Shown: positions 42,010 through 54,595 of the stretch, one piece after another
How the letters are laid out: each line of letters starts with the position of its first letter
Position numbering within the stretch: position 1 is the first letter of the stretch
From: Pseudohongiella nitratireducens
Lineage (GTDB): Bacteria > Pseudomonadota > Gammaproteobacteria > Pseudomonadales > Pseudohongiellaceae
Direction of reading: 5' to 3'
DNA: 64,000 nucleotides
Assembly: GCF_001642735.1 (NCBI RefSeq)
Contig: NZ_LWHM01000021.1
Span: forward strand, 62,001-126,000
Position numbers and translations under genes: made by a program
Notes under the pieces: generated by a model
What the model was told of the DNA's origin: nothing
What the model saw: only the letters and a program-made list of their open reading frames with translations
Databases searched by the model: none

Positions 42010-43260
42010 TTAGCGTTTCTGCCAGTGCAGGCCGATGGCGCTGCCGCTTTCAAAACCGGGCCATTCCTGCCCGTTACTCTCACCTTCCGGGATGTCCAGA
42101 TAGGTTGCCATTTCGCTGTCATCTTTCAGGTGAACGCCCAGGAATGCCGTCGCAAAGTGCTGCAATATATTATTCATGCGCAAGGTATCCCAGACAGGGT
42201 CGGTGTAATGCCCTGCGCCTTCCTGGTTGTCGTGGCGATGAAATTCAGCGGGCAAAGGTATTGGCGCTGCGGCGCTGTGGCCGGCATTGATAAATGTCAG
42301 CAAGTGGCGGTCACTGTTAACAGCTCCATCGTAGATTTTTTTGACGCCTTCTTCATAGCCTGATGTTGTGTCCACACTGCCAGCCACAAATAAGGCAGGT
42401 ACAGTGAGGCCGGCGAGCCCTTCTTCATCCCAGAAACTCATGTTCATGCCCCAGGGGCCTATCGGAATACCCGCCTTTATACGTGGATCCAGTTCAGAGC
42501 GAAAATCCGGATTGCTCGCAGCATGATCCTGAAGCAGTTGATTAGGTGGCCCGCCGAAGAAATTGACGCCCTGTTCGCTATATCCGGCGCCCATGTTATT
42601 GACGGCACCGTAGCCACCCATGGAGTAGCCAATCAGACCGGTATTTTCAGCGTCTATCAAGCCAAAGAGGAAGTGGTCCGGCTGCTCGTTTAATGTCGCT
42701 AACTGGTCAAGCACAAAGCGCTGGTCGGGAGCGCGGTGGTAGAGGGTGCTGGCAAACGCTTTCTGGTCCTCATAAGTGCTGTCAGTATGGTCAATGGAGG
42801 CGACCACGTAGCCTTTGCTGGCCAGGTTTTCGCCCAGGTGGCTCATCAGGTAGCGGTTACCCGGAAAGCCATGTGAAATGATCACCAGCGGGTAAGGCGT
42901 GTTGTTATTTGCCGGGGCAGCATCACGAACAGCTACTCCGGTCAGCACTGCGCTAAGCTGCGGGTTTCGGGTCGTGGTCTGGTACTGGGTGCCGGGCGCT
43001 TGCTGGTCTTGCAGCGTGGCGGGGTACCAGATTTCTACGGTGAGTGTGCGATCTGCGTATACCGTGTCACCATCTCGTGGTGTATTAAGGACATCTGGTT
43101 GCTGAGGGTTGGTGAGCGTAAGCGTGCGAACACCGATGTCGTGCTCACCAAAGGCGGCGAGTTCGGGAGCGTCAGACCGGATCAGATCAATACGGTTGTT
43201 TTCGGCCAGTAGTGTCGGGCTGTTTAGTGTCATCATTAATATTATCAACAGACGTTTCAT
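42010..43260 (-). CDS. secreted alpha/beta hydrolase (PAF-acetylhydrolase/dienelactone hydrolase-like)
   Basis: Exported serine hydrolase of 416 residues with a signal peptide (about residues 1-19, ending TLLAE). The nucleophile elbow is GYSMGGYG near residue 215, oxyanion-hole region is ISHGFPGNRYL near 130, and a late His in INAGHSAAAP or the NQEGAGHYTD segment may complete the triad. The general plan resembles platelet-activating factor acetylhydrolase-like and chlorophyllase-like esterases. The ATG at 43260 has no clear ribosome site; an upstream start at 43299 would lengthen the signal peptide. It lies downstream of the phosphatase on the same strand, 127 bp away. Confidence 0.88.
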   Translation of the reverse strand: MKRLLIILMMTLNSPTLLAENNRIDLIRSDAPELAAFGEHDIGVRTLTLTNPQQPDVLNTPRDGDTVYADRTLTVEIWYPATLQDQQAPGTQYQTTTRNPQLSAVLTGVAVRDAAPANNNTPYPLVIISHGFPGNRYLMSHLGENLASKGYVVASIDHTDSTYEDQKAFASTLYHRAPDQRFVLDQLATLNEQPDHFLFGLIDAENTGLIGYSMGGYGAVNNMGAGYSEQGVNFFGGPPNQLLQDHAASNPDFRSELDPRIKAGIPIGPWGMNMSFWDEEGLAGLTVPALFVAGSVDTTSGYEEGVKKIYDGAVNSDRHLLTFINAGHSAAAPIPLPAEFHRHDNQEGAGHYTDPVWDTLRMNNILQHFATAFLGVHLKDDSEMATYLDIPEGESNGQEWPGFESGSAIGLHWQKR

Positions 43261-43315
43261 CGGAATACCGTCATTATGAGTGATAAGAAGAGACAACACT
43301 ATACCAGCCCGACAT

Positions 43316-43387: not shown

Positions 43388-44296
43388 TTACTTCAGCAAG
43401 CGAGCCTGTAATTCAGCGATATCGTTCTCGCTCAGCCCAAGACCGTCTCTCAGGTAGGCATCAACCGAACCGAATTCCTGACGCATTTCATCGAAAGCAG
43501 TTTCGATGTAACTGGCGCGAGCACCCATCAGGGCATTCAGGGCAGGTTCTGGCATGGATTGCATAAAAGCATACTGCTCATCGCTGGTATCGATATCGGT
43601 CAACGATGGAGCACTGTTAGTGTATGCTGGATTGGTATAGATGGCTTCAGTCAGTGTGTAGTCAGCAATGATAGTCTCCTGGTCGACTCCCAGTGCATGC
43701 AGGATCAAGGCTGCAGCAATACCGGTACGGTCTTTTCCTGCTGAGCAATGAAACAACAGTGGGCGATCAGTCTCCACCAGCACATCGAACATGTCGCGGT
43801 AATGCTCCTGCTGTTCAAAGATCATGCCGCGATACATTTCTGCCATCAGAGCTTCCGCCGTCGCTTCATCAAGTTCCGGATTCATGAACTGCGCCATCTG
43901 GCCGTCGTCTGCCGTCATTTCCATTTCGTAGTCCCAGGTCATGATATGAGCAGGGCCTGCTTTCCATTCAGTTGGCTCTGATTGACGTTCATCGTTAGCA
44001 CGAAAATCGACAACAGTACTGATTTCCAGGTCACTGATTTGCTGATAATCGCTATCTGTCAAGTGATGCAGAACACCAGAGCGGTACAATACCCCGGGTT
44101 TGACCGTTCTTCCATCTTTGGTCTGGTAGCCGCCCAGGTCGCGAAAGTTTCGGCTCCCTTCCATTTGTATCAGATGTCTTTCTATTAGTTCTTCGTTGTT
44201 ATTGACTTCTGCTGAAGTGATGGAAATGGCTGTTAGTGAAGCCACACAAACAGAAGTGATGGCGCCCCAGTAGGCAAGTTGCTTCATGATTTTCAT
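43388..44296 (-). CDS. exported protein tyrosine/serine phosphatase
   Basis: Periplasmic phosphatase of 302 residues with a signal peptide (about residues 1-29, SITSAE). It has the Cys-dependent phosphatase P-loop HCSAGKDRTG near residue 185, the SRNFRDLGGYQTKDG N-terminal signature near residue 48 that marks the tyrosine-phosphatase family Y_phosphatase3, and the DFR general-acid region. Export means that it acts on extracellular or periplasmic phosphoesters rather than regulatory phosphotyrosine. It lies 94 bp behind the TonB receptor in the same direction, so both may serve uptake of a phosphorylated compound (inference). Confidence 0.9.
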   Translation of the reverse strand: MKIMKQLAYWGAITSVCVASLTAISITSAEVNNNEELIERHLIQMEGSRNFRDLGGYQTKDGRTVKPGVLYRSGVLHHLTDSDYQQISDLEISTVVDFRANDERQSEPTEWKAGPAHIMTWDYEMEMTADDGQMAQFMNPELDEATAEALMAEMYRGMIFEQQEHYRDMFDVLVETDRPLLFHCSAGKDRTGIAAALILHALGVDQETIIADYTLTEAIYTNPAYTNSAPSLTDIDTSDEQYAFMQSMPEPALNALMGARASYIETAFDEMRQEFGSVDAYLRDGLGLSENDIAELQARLLK

Positions 44297-44390: not shown

Positions 44391-46940
44391 TTAGAAAGAG
44401 GCGCGAACGCCTGCCATGTAGTGGCGGCCGTAACGCTCGACCTGGTTAGGTGTGGCGGCAGTGCCGGCATAGCGAACGTCAACCGCGTCGTTGAGGTTGT
44501 TGGCGTTCAGGTAAACGGACAGGTCTGCACCAAATGTCTGGATAGGCAGGTCATATTTGATATTCAGGTCCAGTCGTTTCTGTGCGGCCCAGTACTCTGC
44601 GAAGGAGTCATTTTCTGTAGTAGAGAGCCAGTCATCACGGTACTGATAGTTCAGGCGCAGAGACAGTTTTTCCGTTTCGTAATAGACCGATGTGTTATAA
44701 ATCAGGTCTGACGTGCCAGGCAGGCTGAAGCTGTTGCCAGTCAGCGTGTCGAACTCGCTGTCCAGAGCCGTGATATTGGCGGTAAAACCAAGTCCATCCA
44801 GCATGCCGGGGAAGACATCTGATGCCTGTGCTATCAGGTTGATTTCAATGCCGCTGAGATGGCCTTCATTGCCATTAACAAAGCCGGTATATTGCCATTG
44901 CTCGCCCTCTGCTCCTGGCACATACAAACCACCATCAATGGTAGTACTGTCGGCATAAATCACGTTATCAATGCTGCGATGGAAAAGTCCGGCAGAGAGC
45001 ATGCTGGCATCACCCAGGTACCATTCAAGTGATGCGTCTGCGCCAAGTGCTTCTTCCGCTTCCAGTGTGGGGTTACCACCGGTGACGGCTTGATCGACTG
45101 GGTTGACCGACGCAGCAGCGCGCCATTCCGTGTAGGTTGGCCGGCTGATAGAGCTGCCTGCTGCCAAACGCAATTTCAGGTCTTCGCGCAGGTCGATATT
45201 GATGTGGGCGCTAGGCAGTACGTGAGTTTGTTCATCGGCGTGACTGGCCAGAGGCCCAGTGCTTTGGTAGTCGGTGTTTTCAACACGCAGACCGGCAACA
45301 ATATTACCCCAGCTGAAGTCAGTCGTAGTCATGGCGTATACAGCCATGATGTCTTCATCAATACTCACCAGTTGATCCGCAGGTGCTGCTACTGACAGAT
45401 CTCCCGCCGCTTGTTTCCAGGCGCTGAGAATGCCGTAGTTATCGTAAACTGTGCCAGCGATACCATTGGTCATGTCCGTATCCCAAAGTTTGCCAGTATT
45501 GAAATTGTCGATATCAATAGAGCTTGGGAAGCCGCTTTGTGACTGAGCCAGCGCGACACCTCGACCTTCTTTCTGGTCGTACTGGAAGCCAGTGTTCAGC
45601 ACACTGCGCTGACCAAATAGTGACAGGCTGCGCTCGGCATCCAGTTTGACTTTGTCACCATCAATATCCAGGTTTGAATCGATAACCAGCGCCAGTGTCA
45701 TTGCGTAATTAATGTCAGAAGACGACATGGGCGTCTGGCTGAAGGGGACCATCAGCGATACCAGGGGGTCTTCCAGGTTGGAGACATCATAGCTGGCCGC
45801 TACCTGGCCACCGGCACTGAGTGGAATAGGCAGGAATGTTTCGTTTTCTGTAGTGGTGCGATTTAATCGGGCTTCCAGGAACCAGTCGCCAACGGTGAAG
45901 TCGGAACCCAATGTTTGAGTCAGAGCGGCGTTACGGTATTCGCCCGCTTCCAGCATTCGTCGCGCCAGTGCCAATGGCTGATAACCTGTGACGCCCGGTG
46001 CCACGCTGCCGCCCATTGCTTCCGCGCCAGCATCAAATTCGAAAACGTACTGGTTGCGCTCTTCTTCATCCAGGAATTCGCTGCTCAGTACCGAGTAAAA
46101 GTAGCGATCCATGCTGCCTTCCGGGCGATATTCGAGGCGGCCGCCCCATGCTGTGTCCTGTCGAGCGACTTTATAATTGCGCATGTCGATGGCGTTTACG
46201 GTAATGTCCTGAGTGGCAGGGTCCAGAGTCAGATCCAGCTCACGGTTATCCGTGATCTGTTCTCTGAGGTTACGAGAACCAAACACGGAGAAACCCAGTG
46301 TCTCTCCTGACCATGACATGCGGGCGCTGTATCGGCTGACTTCACCGTCACCCAGCATTTGCTCACCGAGACCGATATCGGTAGTGGTAGACCAGCCCTG
46401 ATGTTCAAAAGGATCAAAGGTACGGATGTTGATGTAGCCGGAAACCGCTTCCCCTGGCATGGCTGGTGTGACGGCCTTGTTCGCCTCAATGGCGCGGGTA
46501 ATAACCGCAGGGAAGGCGTCAAATCGCGGTACACGGCCGTTTTCTGCGCCGGGGATGGTCAAACCATCAATGGCCAGGGAAGTATAACGGAAGGGGGCGC
46601 CACGGAAGTTGATGTAACGGGCCTGACCCTGGTCGCGCTCAATCGCCAGACCGGGCATACGGCCTAAAGAATCGGCCAGGTTCTGGTCAGGAAAACGGCC
46701 GATGGTATCAGCGGAAACAACGTCCAGGTAGTTATCGGCATTGCGCTTTTGATCAATGGCTGCTTTTTGGCTGTCACGGATCGGACTGCCGTAGGTGACA
46801 ACTTCGGTAATCTGTTCTGCGCTATTGTCTTCCTGGGCCATGCTGTTTTGTGCAGGTATGGCGGCCATCATGATGGCGGCATACAACGGCAGACGGGAAA
46901 GAGGCAAGCGCGCAAATTTGCGTGATGAAGAGATGTTCAT
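44391..46940 (-). CDS. large TonB-dependent receptor
   Basis: Outer-membrane active transporter of about 849 residues. The signal peptide ends NSMAQ near residue 35; a TonB-box-like EVVTYGSP follows. The plug begins DVVSADTIGRFPDQNLADSLGRMPGLAIERD, the pattern of the sphingomonad/Caulobacter carbohydrate or complex-nutrient receptor clade (TonB-dependent receptor with FPDxNxAD and RG motif RGAPFRYTSLAIDG). The C-terminus ends in Phe (AGVRASF). This clade usually imports oligomers, not siderophores. Two direct repeats 83-115 bp upstream may be regulatory. Start at 46940 is chosen for spacing to GGAG; 46949 is possible. Confidence 0.93.
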   Translation of the reverse strand: MNISSSRKFARLPLSRLPLYAAIMMAAIPAQNSMAQEDNSAEQITEVVTYGSPIRDSQKAAIDQKRNADNYLDVVSADTIGRFPDQNLADSLGRMPGLAIERDQGQARYINFRGAPFRYTSLAIDGLTIPGAENGRVPRFDAFPAVITRAIEANKAVTPAMPGEAVSGYINIRTFDPFEHQGWSTTTDIGLGEQMLGDGEVSRYSARMSWSGETLGFSVFGSRNLREQITDNRELDLTLDPATQDITVNAIDMRNYKVARQDTAWGGRLEYRPEGSMDRYFYSVLSSEFLDEEERNQYVFEFDAGAEAMGGSVAPGVTGYQPLALARRMLEAGEYRNAALTQTLGSDFTVGDWFLEARLNRTTTENETFLPIPLSAGGQVAASYDVSNLEDPLVSLMVPFSQTPMSSSDINYAMTLALVIDSNLDIDGDKVKLDAERSLSLFGQRSVLNTGFQYDQKEGRGVALAQSQSGFPSSIDIDNFNTGKLWDTDMTNGIAGTVYDNYGILSAWKQAAGDLSVAAPADQLVSIDEDIMAVYAMTTTDFSWGNIVAGLRVENTDYQSTGPLASHADEQTHVLPSAHINIDLREDLKLRLAAGSSISRPTYTEWRAAASVNPVDQAVTGGNPTLEAEEALGADASLEWYLGDASMLSAGLFHRSIDNVIYADSTTIDGGLYVPGAEGEQWQYTGFVNGNEGHLSGIEINLIAQASDVFPGMLDGLGFTANITALDSEFDTLTGNSFSLPGTSDLIYNTSVYYETEKLSLRLNYQYRDDWLSTTENDSFAEYWAAQKRLDLNIKYDLPIQTFGADLSVYLNANNLNDAVDVRYAGTAATPNQVERYGRHYMAGVRASF

Positions 46941-47022
46941 GGTATGCATTGCTCCGTGTGGGTTCGGGTATCTAACAAGTCGGGGAGCATGGTGGCGTGG
47001 CTGTATGACGCAACGGTGAATA

Positions 47023-47055
47023 AGATGTCTCTAGTGGAGTTTTAGATATCTCTAA
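47023..47055 (-). promoter_or_regulatory. tandem 12-bp direct repeat upstream of TonB receptor
   Basis: AGATGTCTCTAG (47023-47034) and AGATATCTCTAA (47044-47055) match at 10 of 12 positions and start 21 bp apart, two helical turns. They lie 83-115 bp upstream of the receptor start, right where a regulator would act, and 30-62 bp beyond the end of a gene for a membrane protein with a likely winged-helix domain. Two in-phase direct repeats are the usual pattern for OmpR/ToxR-type regulators. No binding data exist here, so function is inference. Confidence 0.5.
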
Positions 47056-47084: not shown

Positions 47085-48221
47085 TCAAAGAGGTAGAATG
47101 ATCTTGGTCGCACTGGTCTTCAGGCGATAATGATTTCTGCCTGTGCGGGAATCGCGCCTGGTCTCAAATAAATACTGTTCTGCGACTGATTCACCCAGCA
47201 CTTTTATCAATTCTTCTTTGACCTTGTTACGGTTCTGATCCATTGTCTTCGCTCTGACGCCATGTGCCTCCAGTTCCTTGATGGCTTTCTGGTGCCCGTC
47301 GTGTGTTTTCATCAGGTTTAGTAACAAGCGAGTGTGTTCCGGGTTTGCCCGCCCAGAGGCGGGATTGAGTATCCAGCCATTGTCGTCACAGGCTGAGAAA
47401 TTGCGTTGAGCATCATCATGACGCTGGTGCGCGTAAAGTGCGTAATAAAAATAGGGAGTTCGGCTCAGAGGAACCTCTATCCCTCTGATGGAAACTGATT
47501 GCCGGTCATGATGAAACTGGATGCAATCGCTGGCATTGGCACTTTGCATCAACTGCTCGACACTCAGGGAGCCGGATTGAATGCGTTGAATTAGAAAGTC
47601 ATACCACTGCAGACTGGCAGTATCGTTTTTCTGCAAATGTGTCAGTACTGTCTGAATGTCCTGCCATTCCAGTCCCACATCGCTCAACACATTAAGTAAC
47701 TGGCGCTGCTGTGGCGAGTAGGCGCGTGGCAAGCCAGCGATTAACGCAGTGACAAAGGCGGCGAAAAGAAAACTCATTGACAACACAGGGCCTGGCGCAA
47801 CCAGGCAATCCAGGGTAAAGGAAGCTGACAAAGAGGCTGAGAGAGCGTCTTGCTGGCCAGTTTGATGTGTCACCTGCAGGTGCTGAGAAAACCCATGGTT
47901 GGCTGGGGCGGAGGCAATGGCAGTGTTTTCAATTGCGCGCAGTTGCAGCTCGCAGGACGACAGCGTTCCAAGCCAGCTTTGTAATGACAACGATTGCAGA
48001 TCGTTATTGACTTGCTCTGCAATGGTAACGACTGTCGCCTCATCCATCAGGCTGTACCGGCTGGCCTCAATAATGCCAGGCATAATGCGATCGTTCATCA
48101 GGTTGTTGACCTGCCACCGCGCTGAAAGCAGTGATGTTCCAACAGCACTGCAGGCAAACAGCAGTGATGCCAGGAGAAACACAAAGCCGTATCGTCGCAA
48201 GAGGTGGAGAGTCAAGGGCAT
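47085..48221 (-). CDS. membrane protein with periplasmic domain and winged-helix-like C-terminus (unrecognised regulator)
   Basis: I do not recognise a named family. The 378-residue protein has a helix near residues 10-32, a periplasmic region of about 110 residues with two or three cysteines, a second helix near 148-168, and a cytoplasmic C-terminal half of about 200 residues. The last 120 residues show a beta-strand with VSIRGIEVPLSR, then helices, then NRNKVKEELIKVLG and a basic beta-wing ending NHYRLKTSATKI; this order resembles winged-helix DNA-binding domains. A membrane-tethered transcription factor (ToxR-like in plan but with reversed domain order) is my inference. The ATG overlaps the stop of the binding-protein gene by 10 bp. 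Confidence 0.75.
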   Translation of the reverse strand: MPLTLHLLRRYGFVFLLASLLFACSAVGTSLLSARWQVNNLMNDRIMPGIIEASRYSLMDEATVVTIAEQVNNDLQSLSLQSWLGTLSSCELQLRAIENTAIASAPANHGFSQHLQVTHQTGQQDALSASLSASFTLDCLVAPGPVLSMSFLFAAFVTALIAGLPRAYSPQQRQLLNVLSDVGLEWQDIQTVLTHLQKNDTASLQWYDFLIQRIQSGSLSVEQLMQSANASDCIQFHHDRQSVSIRGIEVPLSRTPYFYYALYAHQRHDDAQRNFSACDDNGWILNPASGRANPEHTRLLLNLMKTHDGHQKAIKELEAHGVRAKTMDQNRNKVKEELIKVLGESVAEQYLFETRRDSRTGRNHYRLKTSATKIILPL

Positions 48222-49054
48222 GTCTGAGGAACGCTCTGATGCAGGGCAATCCCTTGCCACAAAGATTTTAAAGGGCTGAGGGCGTGTATCAGCTCACACC
48301 GTATCGTCTGATTACTCAATGCCTGGCGCACGAAAAAACTGGCGGCTATCGCATCATCATCGATCAGTGTTGAATATACGGGGGTCGGTGATGTATAGCC
48401 GGACCCACCGGTGATCAGGTCGATCTCCCCGTTTTGAAAACTTTGATACAGGGTATTGGTGTCCTGAAAATGCACAAGCTCTAATGAGTCTGATGCGATG
48501 CCGGATCGGTGTAATGACTCCAGAGGTAACAGGTAGTGAGTATGGCTGTTTTTGTCGGCCAGCAGACCGATACGCTTTTCCTGAAAGTATTCTGCTGTTA
48601 ACACCGGGGTATTCTGCAGGCTTAACCAGTACACAGAGTAGTGGTCAAAATGTAGCAGAGGGTCATAGTACTGTCCGATATTGGGAACAAGCCCGATCAG
48701 GACATGCTCCCGGCTCCAGATGACATCATAAGCCTCAGTGATTAGCTCTTGCGATGATAACTGGGTACGTGGTTTCCAGGAAACGTCAACGCTACCGTAT
48801 GCTTTGCTGATGCTTTCTGACTGACACAGGCGGGACGCTATATCGCCGGCCTGGTGTGCCGTCACTAAAAGGACAGTTAAGCGAGCCTGTTGCTCCTGGC
48901 TGCCAGTCTGGCAACTGGTACGATAGTAATCTGCCTCTGCGATGGTCAGGTCGTAGACCATATTGACAGCAATGTTGGCGGCGAAAAATACAGTAACAGT
49001 CGCCAGAACCACTATTCGCCGCATTCTGGCTGACCAGAAACGAAGTATCTTCAT
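48212..49054 (-). CDS. membrane-anchored periplasmic-binding-protein-like sensor (PhnD/SsuA-like fold)
   Basis: A 280-residue protein with one N-terminal hydrophobic helix (about residues 14-32, no clear cleavage site) and a periplasmic domain. The segments YGSVDVSWKPRTQLSSQELITEAYDVIWSRE, YWLSLQNTPVLTAEYFQEKRIGLLADKNSHTHYLLPLE and YQSFQNGEIDLITGGSGYTS follow the order of type II periplasmic binding proteins of the PhnD/phosphonate class (shown only partly here), including the QNGEIDLI hinge. No transport genes adjoin it. It overlaps the start of the membrane regulator-like gene, so it probably senses a solute for that protein. Start at 49054 gives a short cytoplasmic tail; an ATG at 49024 is possible. 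Confidence 0.75.
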   Translation of the reverse strand: MKILRFWSARMRRIVVLATVTVFFAANIAVNMVYDLTIAEADYYRTSCQTGSQEQQARLTVLLVTAHQAGDIASRLCQSESISKAYGSVDVSWKPRTQLSSQELITEAYDVIWSREHVLIGLVPNIGQYYDPLLHFDHYSVYWLSLQNTPVLTAEYFQEKRIGLLADKNSHTHYLLPLESLHRSGIASDSLELVHFQDTNTLYQSFQNGEIDLITGGSGYTSPTPVYSTLIDDDAIAASFFVRQALSNQTIRCELIHALSPLKSLWQGIALHQSVPQTCP

Positions 49055-49175
49055 AAGGGGTGGTCTGGTCTGAAGGGCGAGTCTCGAAGTGTAGTTGGGT
49101 AATATGACAGCCATTTGACAGTTATTGCTGGTGCAACCGTTGTGCAAATCGGATGGATTAATAGTGATCGGGCAA

Positions 49176-49204: not shown

Positions 49205-49243
49205 TAAATGAAATAGTAATCACCACAGGGAACTGTGATAGCC

Positions 49244-50191
49244 ATGAATAAATTGCAAGCACTCAAACAAATGACAACTGTCGTTGCTGACACTGGTGAG
49301 TTTGATGCAATCCGGCGATTTGCGCCGCAAGATGCGACAACTAACCCGTCGTTGATTCTTAATGCATCCAGATTGCCGCAATACGAAGACCTGGTCAGCG
49401 ATGCGATCGCTTATGGCCAGCGCATCGGCAGTACGCTGGAGTCGCGGGTTGAAGCGGCGATCGACAAACTGTCGGTTAATTTCGGGCAGCGAATCGTTGA
49501 TGTTGTGCCGGGTTATGTGTCCACTGAGGCGGATGCGCAACTTTCATTTGACACGCGCGGCACGATTGAAAAGGCGCATCGTCTGCTGGAGCTCTATGAT
49601 CTGGCTGGGGTTGATACCAGCCGCATACTGATCAAAATTGCTTCCACCTGGGAAGGCATTGAGGCTGCGCGTCAACTTGAGCAGCAGGGCATAAAATGCA
49701 ATCTGACCCTTTTGTTTGGCTTCTGTCAGGCACAGGCGTGTGCAGATGCCGGAGTCTATTTGATATCACCCTTTGTGGGCAGAATACTGGACTGGTATAA
49801 AGCATCAACCGGGCAGGAATACACCGCTGAGACAGATCCTGGAGTACTGTCGGTAAAACGTATATATCGTTACTACAAAGCACATGGTTACCAGACCATT
49901 GTGATGGGGGCGAGCTTCAGAAATACCGGAGAAATAGAGGCACTGGCCGGCTGTGACCGGCTAACCATTTCTCCGGCATTGCTGGAAAAGCTGGAGGCAG
50001 ATGCAGGCGAATTGCCACAACAGTTATCCGCAGACATGCCCAGTGATGATTCACGCGAAGTGCTGCAGCAGCCCGGTTTCCGCTGGGCACTTAACGAAGA
50101 TGCCATGGCGACAGAGAAGCTGTCAGAGGGTATTCGAAAATTCCATGCAGATTATCTGTCGCTGAAGCAACTGCTTGCTGAGAAGTTCTAG
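49244..50191 (+). CDS. tal: transaldolase
   Basis: Pentose-phosphate enzyme that moves a dihydroxyacetone unit between sugar phosphates. The 315-residue protein is of the classical TalA/TalB subfamily: [13 protein letters not shown] at the start, [12 protein letters not shown] near residues 26-37, the Schiff-base lysine in [12 protein letters not shown] near residue 130, and the [33 protein letters not shown] region. Start at the ATG three codons after a GTG is chosen by alignment with E. coli TalB. Its TAG and the convergent wrbA TAG share the same four bases. Confidence 0.96.
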
Positions 50192-52819: not shown

Positions 52820-52849
52820 TCGGCTGGGTAATCGCCGCAATAGGTGGCT

Positions 52850-54595
52850 ATGGGTGCGAATTGGGTTAATAGTGTATTAGTCGCGGCATTGTTCGTTATT
52901 GCCTGGTTTATATATCAGTATCAGGCACCGTGGCAGCTATATCGACGCCGGGCCTGGCTGGCTCATTACACACAGTCGGGCGGGGCATTGCGCCGCCTGC
53001 TATGGCGACAAACGTTTGCCATGCTGCTGCTTTCTGTTCAGGCTTTAATCGCAGCTTTGTTATTGATTGTATTTGCTTCGGGACTTGAGCGCCTTGAGTG
53101 GTATGTACTCTGGGCAGCCCTGCCATTTTTCTTTCTGATTGTTATCTCACCACCAAAAATACTGGTTCGGGAAATATCCCCCACGCTGGTAGCGCTGGCC
53201 AGCCTGCGGGTGGCGGTTATTGTTATAACCATTATCACTGCCATCGCATTGGTTGCCCTGACATTATTCTGGCTGGAAGCGCCGGATTACCGTGGCAGCA
53301 ATATCCGTTCCTTGTTGCTCTCAGAATATGAGGCAGGGTCGCAGGCAGGAGGTCCTTTGTTTGGCGTCCTGTTTGGATTGAACTCATCCCTGGATGCTGG
53401 TTTGTGGTTCGTGATGCAATCAGCTGCTGATGCCACAATGGCTTTGCCGCGCGGTGTTAAAATCTTTGCATGGAGCAGTTTTCTGATTGTGAAAACTGCA
53501 ACAGCTGCACTGTTTTGGACAGCGCTGGCAGGTTTCCTGGCATTCGTGTGGGCTTTCCGGGGCATGGCCAGGCTGGCACCGCCACGTCTCCCTGGTAACG
53601 GTCAAATGGCTTTTGGGCTGGTGATTGTACTAACCCTGTTTGGTAGTAGTTTTCTGTACAGTCCAGGCTGGCTCAGCCTGATGAGGCCGGAGAGTTTGAC
53701 ACAGTTCGCCGGGCTGCAGAGCAACTGCGTTTCTCCGCAAAAAAAACGACAGATGAAAGCAGAGAGTGCACAGCACCTTGAGATTCAAAGCAATGCCGGT
53801 CTGGGGCGAATAGAGAGTCGAATGGATGATCAGTTAAACGCCATCTATCTGTCTGCTGAGCAGGGTGTAGATGAGTTTTTGGACTGGCATTACAGTATCA
53901 GGGGGCAGTACAGTCAGCTCGGAGTCTGGGCGGCCAGCAGGCTGGGTGGTCAGTCGTATGAATCCTTTATCCAGTCACGTATGGCTTCATACATCAGTGC
54001 TCCAATGGAAGAGAAGCTGTCGGCGCTGGACAGTGACTTGCAATCGGCATTCGAGTTTGAAGTTGCCAGTCTCGGGCGGCAGCATGCCAGTTACCTGGAT
54101 TCGCTAATGGATGAAGATTGTCTGCAGTTTGGTCTGGCTGTGCCGACATTGCCGGCACAGCTGGCACGAACCACAGCTGGACTGGGAAGCATTGCGGGGC
54201 TGTCCAGCTATGCAGCAACACGCCTTGGTTTTCGTTTTGCCATGCAGCGCGGTGGTCAGGCTGTCGCAACGCGGTCTGCCAGCCGGTTTGCCTCACGCGC
54301 TGCCACCAGCGGAGTCAGTAGCAGTTCTGGTGTCCTTTGTGGGCCAATGGTGGTGGTATGTGCTCCTGTCTTGGCGGCAGGTGCCTGGCTAGGAACAGAC
54401 TGGCTCATTAACCGGGCCGATGAGGCCATGCATCGTGAAGAATTAAAGCAAGTGATCATGGAGGCGTTAAGCAATGATCGCGTTGAGCGTGCAGCCGGAC
54501 TGATGGGAGCGTACTCGCTTGCCATGGAGGATATAGAGAACGACGTTCAAAACTGGCAGCAGCAGCGTTACCGTATCTTGCGGGATGGAATTTAA
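52850..54595 (+). CDS. large membrane protein of unknown function
   Basis: I do not recognise this 581-residue protein. About six hydrophobic segments lie in residues 5-250 (near 8-25, 55-78, 85-102, 125-150, 200-230, 245-265). A periplasmic or cytoplasmic helical domain with few cysteines follows to about residue 430. A glycine/alanine/serine-rich stretch (about 435-530) includes two hydrophobic runs with a glycine-zipper look, and the C-terminus is a charged amphipathic helix. It follows sppA by 30 bp and may be co-transcribed. Start at 52850 is behind AGGTGG. A role in envelope quality control with SppA is only a guess. Confidence 0.75.
   Translation: MGANWVNSVLVAALFVIAWFIYQYQAPWQLYRRRAWLAHYTQSGGALRRLLWRQTFAMLLLSVQALIAALLLIVFASGLERLEWYVLWAALPFFFLIVISPPKILVREISPTLVALASLRVAVIVITIITAIALVALTLFWLEAPDYRGSNIRSLLLSEYEAGSQAGGPLFGVLFGLNSSLDAGLWFVMQSAADATMALPRGVKIFAWSSFLIVKTATAALFWTALAGFLAFVWAFRGMARLAPPRLPGNGQMAFGLVIVLTLFGSSFLYSPGWLSLMRPESLTQFAGLQSNCVSPQKKRQMKAESAQHLEIQSNAGLGRIESRMDDQLNAIYLSAEQGVDEFLDWHYSIRGQYSQLGVWAASRLGGQSYESFIQSRMASYISAPMEEKLSALDSDLQSAFEFEVASLGRQHASYLDSLMDEDCLQFGLAVPTLPAQLARTTAGLGSIAGLSSYAATRLGFRFAMQRGGQAVATRSASRFASRAATSGVSSSSGVLCGPMVVVCAPVLAAGAWLGTDWLINRADEAMHREELKQVIMEALSNDRVERAAGLMGAYSLAMEDIENDVQNWQQQRYRILRDGI

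Follow-up and report, generated by a model that had tools for sequence, protein, structure and literature searches.

A PhnD-like periplasmic binding protein encoded with a putative membrane-bound transcription factor beside phosphoesterase genes in Gammaproteobacteria

Introduction

The co-component systems VtrA/VtrC, ToxR/ToxS, TcpP/TcpH and GrvA/FidL, in the available text of Kinch et al. (2022, PMC9214523), each join a DNA-binding protein anchored in the membrane to a tethered partner that senses in the periplasm. Here we analyse a stretch of 64,000 nucleotides from Pseudohongiella nitratireducens (contig NZ_LWHM01000021.1, positions 62,001 to 126,000), hereafter the window, in which two genes that we call A and B appear to encode a pair of the same general kind, with A a predicted anchored sensor and B a predicted membrane-bound transcription factor. 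As in the co-component systems of that text, the genes are adjacent and often overlapping, phosphorelay is absent and the periplasmic domain of the regulator carries a pair of cysteines. The two also differ: in A-B the sensor gene comes first; the VtrA/VtrC-type sensor is lipocalin-like, whereas A has the fold of a type II periplasmic binding protein; the VtrA/VtrC-type regulator has an N-terminal helix-turn-helix and one membrane helix, whereas B has two helices and a DNA-binding-like domain at its C-terminus; and the neighbours of A-B suggest a role in phosphorus scavenging and not in virulence. Since two defining features of co-component systems are not shared, A-B would work like one of them and is not filed in the VtrA/VtrC superfamily.

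Other described pairs come close in one part or another. In Xanthomonas citri, the periplasmic receptor XAC2383 is reportedly paired with the diguanylate cyclase XAC2382. XAC2383 is like A a PhnD-like receptor with a signalling partner (entry 5ub7 ranks third among the Foldseek matches of A), whereas the output of XAC2382 is a diguanylate cyclase and that of B a DNA-binding-like domain. In the chitin utilisation of Vibrio cholerae, the periplasmic solute-binding protein CBP activates the membrane-anchored DNA-binding regulator ChiS, likely by contact, as the accessible part of the source describes (PMC11856585). CBP binds chitin oligosaccharides in that account, whereas A is PhnD-like and is encoded with B as a unit, and B has no kinase domain. 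CBP/ChiS and XAC2383-XAC2382 are thus earlier examples of a binding protein that works with a signalling protein of the membrane. The fold of the PhnD/PtxB family is found in A, whereas the ATP-binding cassette (ABC) transporter operon is absent from the window locus. Our literature searches, with most subscription journals outside their coverage, listed two papers on iron uptake and returned no paper matching this plan, and in the available text of a survey of transmembrane transcription regulators (PMC10269533) the terms "periplasmic binding", "TonB" and "winged helix" do not occur. The statement in an initial annotation of the window that it knew of no named system with this plan needs qualifying, in that the co-component systems and CBP/ChiS share its logic with different parts.

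Proposed model

We propose, with a probability of about 0.7, that A and B form a kinase-free system, co-component-like in its plan, whose PhnD-like sensor controls a transcription factor held in the membrane, and that this system is part of the response to phosphate starvation. The computations show that the two genes are linked, that each protein by itself is modelled with confidence, that the output domain has homologues, that a conserved palindrome goes with A-B, and that Pho-box-like repeats and phosphoesterase genes lie nearby. The palindrome that tracks A-B and the frequent phosphoesterase neighbours lend support from sequence to the idea of the initial annotation, namely a kinase-free periplasmic sensor acting with a membrane-bound regulator.

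We infer the ligand class, the contact between A and B, the binding of DNA by B, the sign of the regulation and the control by PhoB, and the events would run as follows. Phosphate starvation would act through PhoB to have A and B made. A, predicted to be tethered to the inner membrane, would bind a small phosphorus compound in the periplasm, as its fold, its loop and its neighbours suggest; ligand-bound A would alter the state of the periplasmic domain of B, a contact to which the linkage of the genes points; and B would relay the signal inward, to the winged-helix domain on its cytoplasmic side. The head of B, as a dimer, may then grip the palindrome TTTAGAGAYRTCTCTAAA just upstream of the adjoining genes and would activate, probably rather than repress, a local cassette made of a TonB-dependent receptor importing a phosphorylated organic compound and an exported phosphatase, or elsewhere of SurE, alkaline phosphatases or a phosphatidylinositol-specific phospholipase C (PI-PLC). 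Expression of the target genes would in this way take both low phosphate and the substrate, as two keys.

We lean slightly towards regarding A-B as an undescribed signalling class, with a PhnD-like receptor, a C-terminal DNA-reading head shared with CRISPR-associated CARF proteins, a dedicated operator and two-key control of phosphorus-scavenging cassettes across Gammaproteobacteria. If the proposal is correct, a periplasmic binding protein would be added as a sensing module of kinase-free transmembrane regulators, and a rare kind of bacterial switch would gain a new build with its DNA-binding head at the C-terminus. Since a conserved predicted operator is present, promoter finding and activation by a membrane-bound factor would be testable on one short site. 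The pair may be an additional level at which bacteria, mostly marine ones, sense organic phosphorus, and it would give the NE0113/CARF5 C-terminal domain a candidate DNA target for comparison.

Results and discussion

A palindrome behind gene B is the candidate operator

The palindrome TTTAGAGAYRTCTCTAAA was noticed in the gap behind B across loci. Within the first 200 bases after B, its core TAGAGAYRTCTCTA was found with at most two mismatches at 45 of 66 loci and with at most three at 54, as against 4 and 30 of 1320 dinucleotide shuffles, respectively; the core consensus was written after viewing the same loci, so that this comparison was not blind, which lessens its value for the proposed model, and since the consensus was drawn from the sequences tested, the further tests matter more than the shuffles. 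Upstream of A, the core appeared with up to three mismatches at 5 of 63 loci (27 of 1260 shuffles), and at one of the loci read (L100) it is exact in that position. At four Pseudoalteromonas loci that have no site after B, the receptor gene is divergent from A and a site lies between the two, at the promoter of the receptor, in all four, with a phosphatase behind the receptor in three and the fourth cut by a contig end; as these loci are close relatives, they amount to about one independent case.

Genome-wide, the exact core has 8 copies in 26 genomes that carry A-B (about 111 Mb; the 27th such genome, G401, was left out of the count), and all 8 are at the A-B locus. Six of them stand between B and the probable start of the receptor, two of these inside the longest receptor frame, and the other two are inside B. 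In the home genome (3.4 Mb in 34 contigs), TAGAGAYRTCTNWAA has a single exact copy, at window positions 47040-47054. We also examined regions of 4-14 kb around phosphatase homologues (expect value, E, <=1e-20) in all 15 genomes of the family that have such a homologue and no strong A-B, G090 with its weak B-like match among them; a receptor was recognised in 8, and no site within two mismatches was found in any of the 15. The palindrome thus follows A-B and not the cargo.

These counts bear on a different explanation, in which the palindrome would be a site for PhoB or another global regulator and B would act otherwise, for example by binding a cytoplasmic protein. The palindrome adjoins a Pho-box-like element and B has no sequence match to OmpR-type proteins, as such an explanation would have it; a global site, however, agrees poorly with the single exact copy of TAGAGAYRTCTNWAA in the home genome, with the location of all 8 exact cores at A-B loci and with the 15 phosphatase regions devoid of the site, and we hold it to be improbable. 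The conserved palindrome is, by contrast with that explanation, supported as the predicted operator of B by its co-occurrence with A-B in the sequences compared, and the regulon looks local.

The weaker second copy of the palindrome in the window (Table 1) is not significant alone, with five window matches within three mismatches where 3.26 are expected; half-sites resembling it were noted by eye in several relatives. One-mismatch sites elsewhere were rejected as regulon members, as their counts are not above control (5 in the home genome, against 4 for the reversed pattern), and three of the four home sites were read, all of them intragenic. A role of the palindrome as a terminator was rejected as well, none of four terminator-like matches falling on it. 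The exact cores inside the B frame are at 7695-7708 of L074 (genome G315) and at 7562-7575 of L075 (genome G294), and G294 has an extra one-mismatch copy just after B.

A and B are linked across Gammaproteobacteria

Of the 137 genomes searched in the family, 7 have a strong match to A, and the same 7 have a strong match to B; at E<=0.01 the numbers rise to 9 genomes for B and 8 for A through weak partial matches (B-like in G090 and G109, A-like in G035). We read 27 loci (the window, 6 and 20), and A stands beside B on the same strand in all 27, overlapping it in 26. With a profile, B was found in 24 of 390 genomes at the order level; of 398 genomes at the phylum level, 4 have B at E<=1e-5, all within the class.

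When named genomes were searched with the alignment of B, 66 loci came up, several of them in genomes of the family and order scans. The hosts, mostly marine, are by title Gammaproteobacteria, including Microbulbifer, Zhongshania, Spongiibacter, Vibrio, Pseudoalteromonas, Photobacterium, Colwellia and Endozoicomonas, with one locus labelled Pseudomonadota only. The B frame was recovered in 65 of the 66 (L126, with none, stays outside the named-locus tallies), and 62 of the 65 have an A match; in the other three, no more than 162 bp lie between B and the end of the contig. As these loci were picked by B alone, the presence of A was not selected for. A is directly upstream of B in 61 of the 62, the exception being L134, where A is split in two frames, and the longest frames of A and B overlap in 53 of the 62. 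L134 is Vibrio maritimus CAIM 1455; in another V. maritimus record (L135), A is in one frame. The outcome that the initial annotation had named as speaking against the pair, homologues that occur singly, did not occur: wherever sequence upstream of B is available, A and B are almost always linked.

Before alignments A5 and A6 were made, 8 near-identical loci and two A frames shorter than 240 aa (L134 and L137) were removed; for the column view, the removal of near-identical rows took 62 down to 53. A plasmid search with a Vibrio B gave nothing useful, and a first scan of genome contigs with a single protein found no relative.

The C-terminal domain of B is modelled like a winged helix and is shared with NE0113 proteins

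B has two hydrophobic segments (19-residue windows starting near residues 10-16 and 139-149), and its AlphaFold (AF2) model, from an alignment of 58 sequences, has a predicted local distance difference test score (pLDDT) of 91.8. In the N-terminal half of the model, a long first helix is followed by strands 87-97, 111-119 and 131-141, a second helix at 143-163 and a helical linker; the C-terminal part has three short strands within 234-251, helices 254-273, 294-306, 311-320, 324-342 and 344-350, and a two-stranded wing (352-356/363-367). The protein is divided in this way into a periplasmic strand domain of about residues 34-143 and a cytoplasmic winged-helix-like domain of about residues 230-378. 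The best Foldseek match is the DNA-binding domain of AdeR (probability 0.90, E 0.16), and domains of VicR, YycF and OmpR are present, among unrelated chains, in the first 30 matches. In a strongly conserved stretch of B, N330 and R331 are kept in 58 of 58 sequences and positions 325, 333 and 335 are K or R in all 58. The periplasmic cysteines C90 and C139 are kept in 45 and 44 of them.

The domain gave no consistent assignment in Pfam. PF00486, the OmpR/PhoB-type family, has no match to B at E<=1 and is absent from the families shown for the 58 members (25 of 37), and none of the Pfam families listed for those members fits the output domain. Single-sequence searches of Pfam and NCBIfam with A and B were uninformative, B giving one sub-threshold chance match in each, and single-sequence searches of PDB sequences gave nothing useful. 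The matches of the A5 profile to PDB entries, ATP synthase b (best E 0.0032) and Orc1, fall in helical stretches and were taken as chance.

A relationship was found through a profile of the output domain, with which 274 genomes of the class yielded 14 proteins, namely the window B and 13 others (L230-L242). Twelve of the 13 are TIGR02584 proteins above the cut-off, and the remaining one, a 206-aa frame (L237), has no NCBIfam match. Five of the eight NE0113 (CRISPR-associated) loci fetched, a small set, give a frame that matches the B domain at E<=0.01 (best 1.4e-12), the matches of L155 and L158 being partial, and PADLOC independently aligns residues 212-374 of B with the C-terminal end of CARF5 (E 2.6e-10). 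From these comparisons, the C-terminal domain of B is homologous to the C-terminal domain of NE0113/CARF5, and, modelled like a winged helix, it is putatively DNA-binding. NE0113 is predicted to regulate transcription directly in the available text of Makarova et al. (2014, PMC4012209). B differs from NE0113/CARF5 in being membrane-bound and without a CARF domain match; the PADLOC match is limited to 212-374, and the N-terminal half consists of membrane helices and the strand domain.

The initial annotation had read B as a two-helix membrane protein ending like a winged helix, with no kinase or phosphorelay. The AF2 model agrees and does not give the C-terminal half another fold, and the CARF5 homology points the same way, the Foldseek match reaching only E 0.16; a two-component system was rejected, since neither A nor B has a histidine kinase or receiver match in Pfam or NCBIfam at E<=1.

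Phosphoesterase genes and Pho-box-like repeats surround the pair

In 58 of 65 named loci, B is followed by a TonB receptor (mostly with a phosphatase), by SurE or by alkaline phosphatases. The receptor loci number 39, of which 33 have a phosphatase, 2 a PI-PLC and 4 the receptor alone recognised; SurE-like genes are downstream in 17 loci, plus L131 by Pfam, and two alkaline phosphatases in one. An M28 peptidase follows B in 4 of the 65, and nothing was recognised downstream in L122, nor in L100 and L107, which both lie close to a contig end. Labels were given by profile or BLAST, with 10 proteins checked with Pfam and signal peptides judged by eye. Within the genus (15 genomes), the phosphatase (E<=1e-20), A and B are together in the same 6 and were not found in the other 9. 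In many A-B-SurE loci, the gene after SurE encodes a short, lipoprotein-like protein of about 210-235 aa (by eye); the one at L094:9193-9846 matched neither Pfam nor NCBIfam. Just upstream of A in G127, and divergent from it, is a gene for a PhoD-like alkaline phosphatase (L025:7169-8740; NF058638 E 3e-193, below cut-off).

The proximity of the receptor invites another explanation, in which A-B would be an uptake accessory: A would ferry a phosphorylated solute from the TonB receptor, B would be its membrane partner and the palindrome would be read by another regulator. The binding-protein fold of A beside a receptor makes such a role possible, and the want of a consistent Pfam assignment for the output domain of B suits it too. 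On the other hand, A-B and the palindrome are present at SurE and PhoA loci, whose genes directly downstream included no recognised receptor; B has only two membrane helices and no transporter domain at E<=1, and its C-terminal domain is common to a family predicted to regulate transcription; and the palindrome was missing from the 15 phosphatase regions without A-B. In our judgement there is little to be said for an uptake accessory.

For regulation by phosphate, the proposed model draws on direct repeats scored against CTGTCAT-N4-CTGTCAT, which we take to be the Pho-box consensus. The repeat upstream of A in the window (Table 1) is accompanied by four other window sites with two mismatches, where 0.68 are expected in all. 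After exclusion of the same 8 near-identical loci, a repeat within four mismatches lies upstream of A at 37 of 55 loci (6.5% in shuffles) and within three at 21 of 55 (0.7%); three control patterns, a shuffled half-site and two wrong spacings, match at 8-14 of 55 within four and at 1-5 of 55 within three, so that part of the excess is not specific. A Pho-box-like element on the receptor side is seen by eye in related loci also.

Gene A is a predicted sensor of the PhnD type

A has one hydrophobic segment, at its N-terminus. Its AF2 model (pLDDT 92.6; alignment of 53 sequences) has a helix at 9-32 followed by a two-lobed binding-protein fold, for which Foldseek returned 628 PDB matches at E<=0.001, with PtxB, PhnD and XAC2383 at the top. 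A is, on this model, of the type II periplasmic binding-protein fold, and the PhnD-like domain behind one N-terminal helix of the initial annotation is confirmed by a confident prediction. Since the scores of amino-acid-binding proteins come close to that of PhnD, the ligand does not follow from the fold alone. At E<=1, PF12974 is matched by 23 of the 53 sequences in the A alignment (best 6.7e-4) and not by the window protein. The best match of the A profile among PDB sequences is XAC2383 (5ub3, E 0.04), spanning the loop S-S-T-S-G-Y-L-L-P. In PhnD, this loop holds the phosphonate oxygens. S170 and P177 are kept in 53 of 53 A sequences, and S or T at 172 in 52. C48 and C77 are likewise kept in all 53, C253 in 43 and C279 in 44, a conservation consistent with disulfides in the periplasm.

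It may also be that regulation is as described with its sign reversed, A holding B as a repressor, or that the ligand contains no phosphorus and the phosphatase link is incidental. Sign and ligand are fixed by no result here, an M28 peptidase follows B in four loci, and the ligand assignment has to contend with the marginal PF12974 matches and with the amino-acid-binding proteins near PhnD. Against an incidental link stand the four phosphoesterase families downstream (Y_phosphatase3, SurE, PhoA and PI-PLC), the kept loop residues S170 and S/T172 and the Pho-box-like repeats that precede A; even the four M28 loci have a divergent receptor beside A, with a phosphatase in three, the fourth being cut by a contig end. 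We consider these variants unlikely, though they deserve more credence than a global site or an uptake accessory, and prefer activation by B in answer to a phosphorus compound.

Observations that weigh against the proposed regulator

Several results run counter to B as a DNA-binding regulator with a dedicated operator under PhoB. No site within three mismatches follows B in 12 of 66 loci; 5 of these have a site upstream of A, 4 have one with four mismatches, and the remaining three (L106, L107 and L110) have neither. The exact core is absent from 18 of the 26 A-B genomes, the home genome included, and sites within one mismatch number 20 in the 26 genomes against 50 for the reversed pattern, which means that only the exact form discriminates genome-wide. 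As for the output domain, Foldseek gave no match at E<=0.001 in support of the winged helix of B; B has no match at E<0.5 among the frames of the 11 PF00486 loci of the home genome; and L156, a long TIGR02584 protein, does not match the B domain. NCBIfam names TIGR02584 a ring nuclease, so that DNA binding by the shared domain stays a prediction. On the receptor side, the Pho consensus was found within four mismatches at 21 of 58 loci (5.9% in shuffles), and the best site of the window itself has 6 mismatches.

The locus in the window and its neighbours

Table 1. Coordinates of the features in the window
Feature	Positions	Strand	Description	Basis
Gene A	48212-49054	-	280 aa; PhnD/PtxB-like type II periplasmic binding protein, predicted anchored sensor	Translation, AF2, Foldseek
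Gene B	47085-48221	-	378 aa; two-helix membrane protein, predicted transcription factor	Translation, AF2, Foldseek, PADLOC
Output domain of B	47085-47537		Common to NE0113/TIGR02584 proteins	
Palindrome TTTTAGAGATATCTAAAA	47040-47057	-	Predicted operator of B	2 mismatches to core TAGAGAYRTCTCTA
Second, weaker palindrome copy	47020-47033	-	Centre 21 bp from the first	3 mismatches
Second half-site running into Pho-box-like TTCAC-N6-GTCAT	47004-47032	-	Upstream of the receptor gene	
Pho-box-like direct repeat CTGTCAAATGGCTGTCAT	49104-49121	-	Upstream of A	1 mismatch of 14
TonB-dependent receptor	44391-46949	-	852 aa; likely target gene	TIGR01782 E 2.9e-138
Y_phosphatase3 (tyrosine-phosphatase-like)	43388-44296	-	302 aa; likely target gene	PF13350 E 6.5e-75
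Transaldolase	49235-50191	Divergent	Upstream of A	PF00923 E 2.2e-95

The reading frames of A and B are as the initial annotation gave them, on the minus strand, and share 10 bp (48212-48221). Its assertion that no transport genes are present was wrong, since the receptor lies directly downstream of B. The receptor is given as its longest open reading frame and its real start is possibly later; it has Plug and beta-barrel domains (Pfam, E<=1). An STN domain was not found in it at the same threshold, and surface signalling of the Fec type (FecA/FecR/FecI) was rejected on that account. A broken ABC transporter was rejected too, because none of the 10 window neighbours scanned with Pfam is an ABC permease or ATPase; the other loci were judged by eye, and in L105 an ABC-like gene pair was seen about 2 kb upstream on the opposite strand.

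Further along the window, a 583-aa membrane-protein-like frame (52844-54595) with no Pfam match at E<=0.001 comes after an S49 peptidase. The N-terminus of the Y_phosphatase3 protein resembles a signal peptide by eye. After its gene, at 42010-43299, stands an alpha/beta hydrolase (PF12740 E 5.7e-15) like poly(ethylene terephthalate) hydrolase (PETase) and platelet-activating factor (PAF) acetylhydrolase, and a gene with a similar start is likewise behind the phosphatase in the same-genus loci L020-L023.

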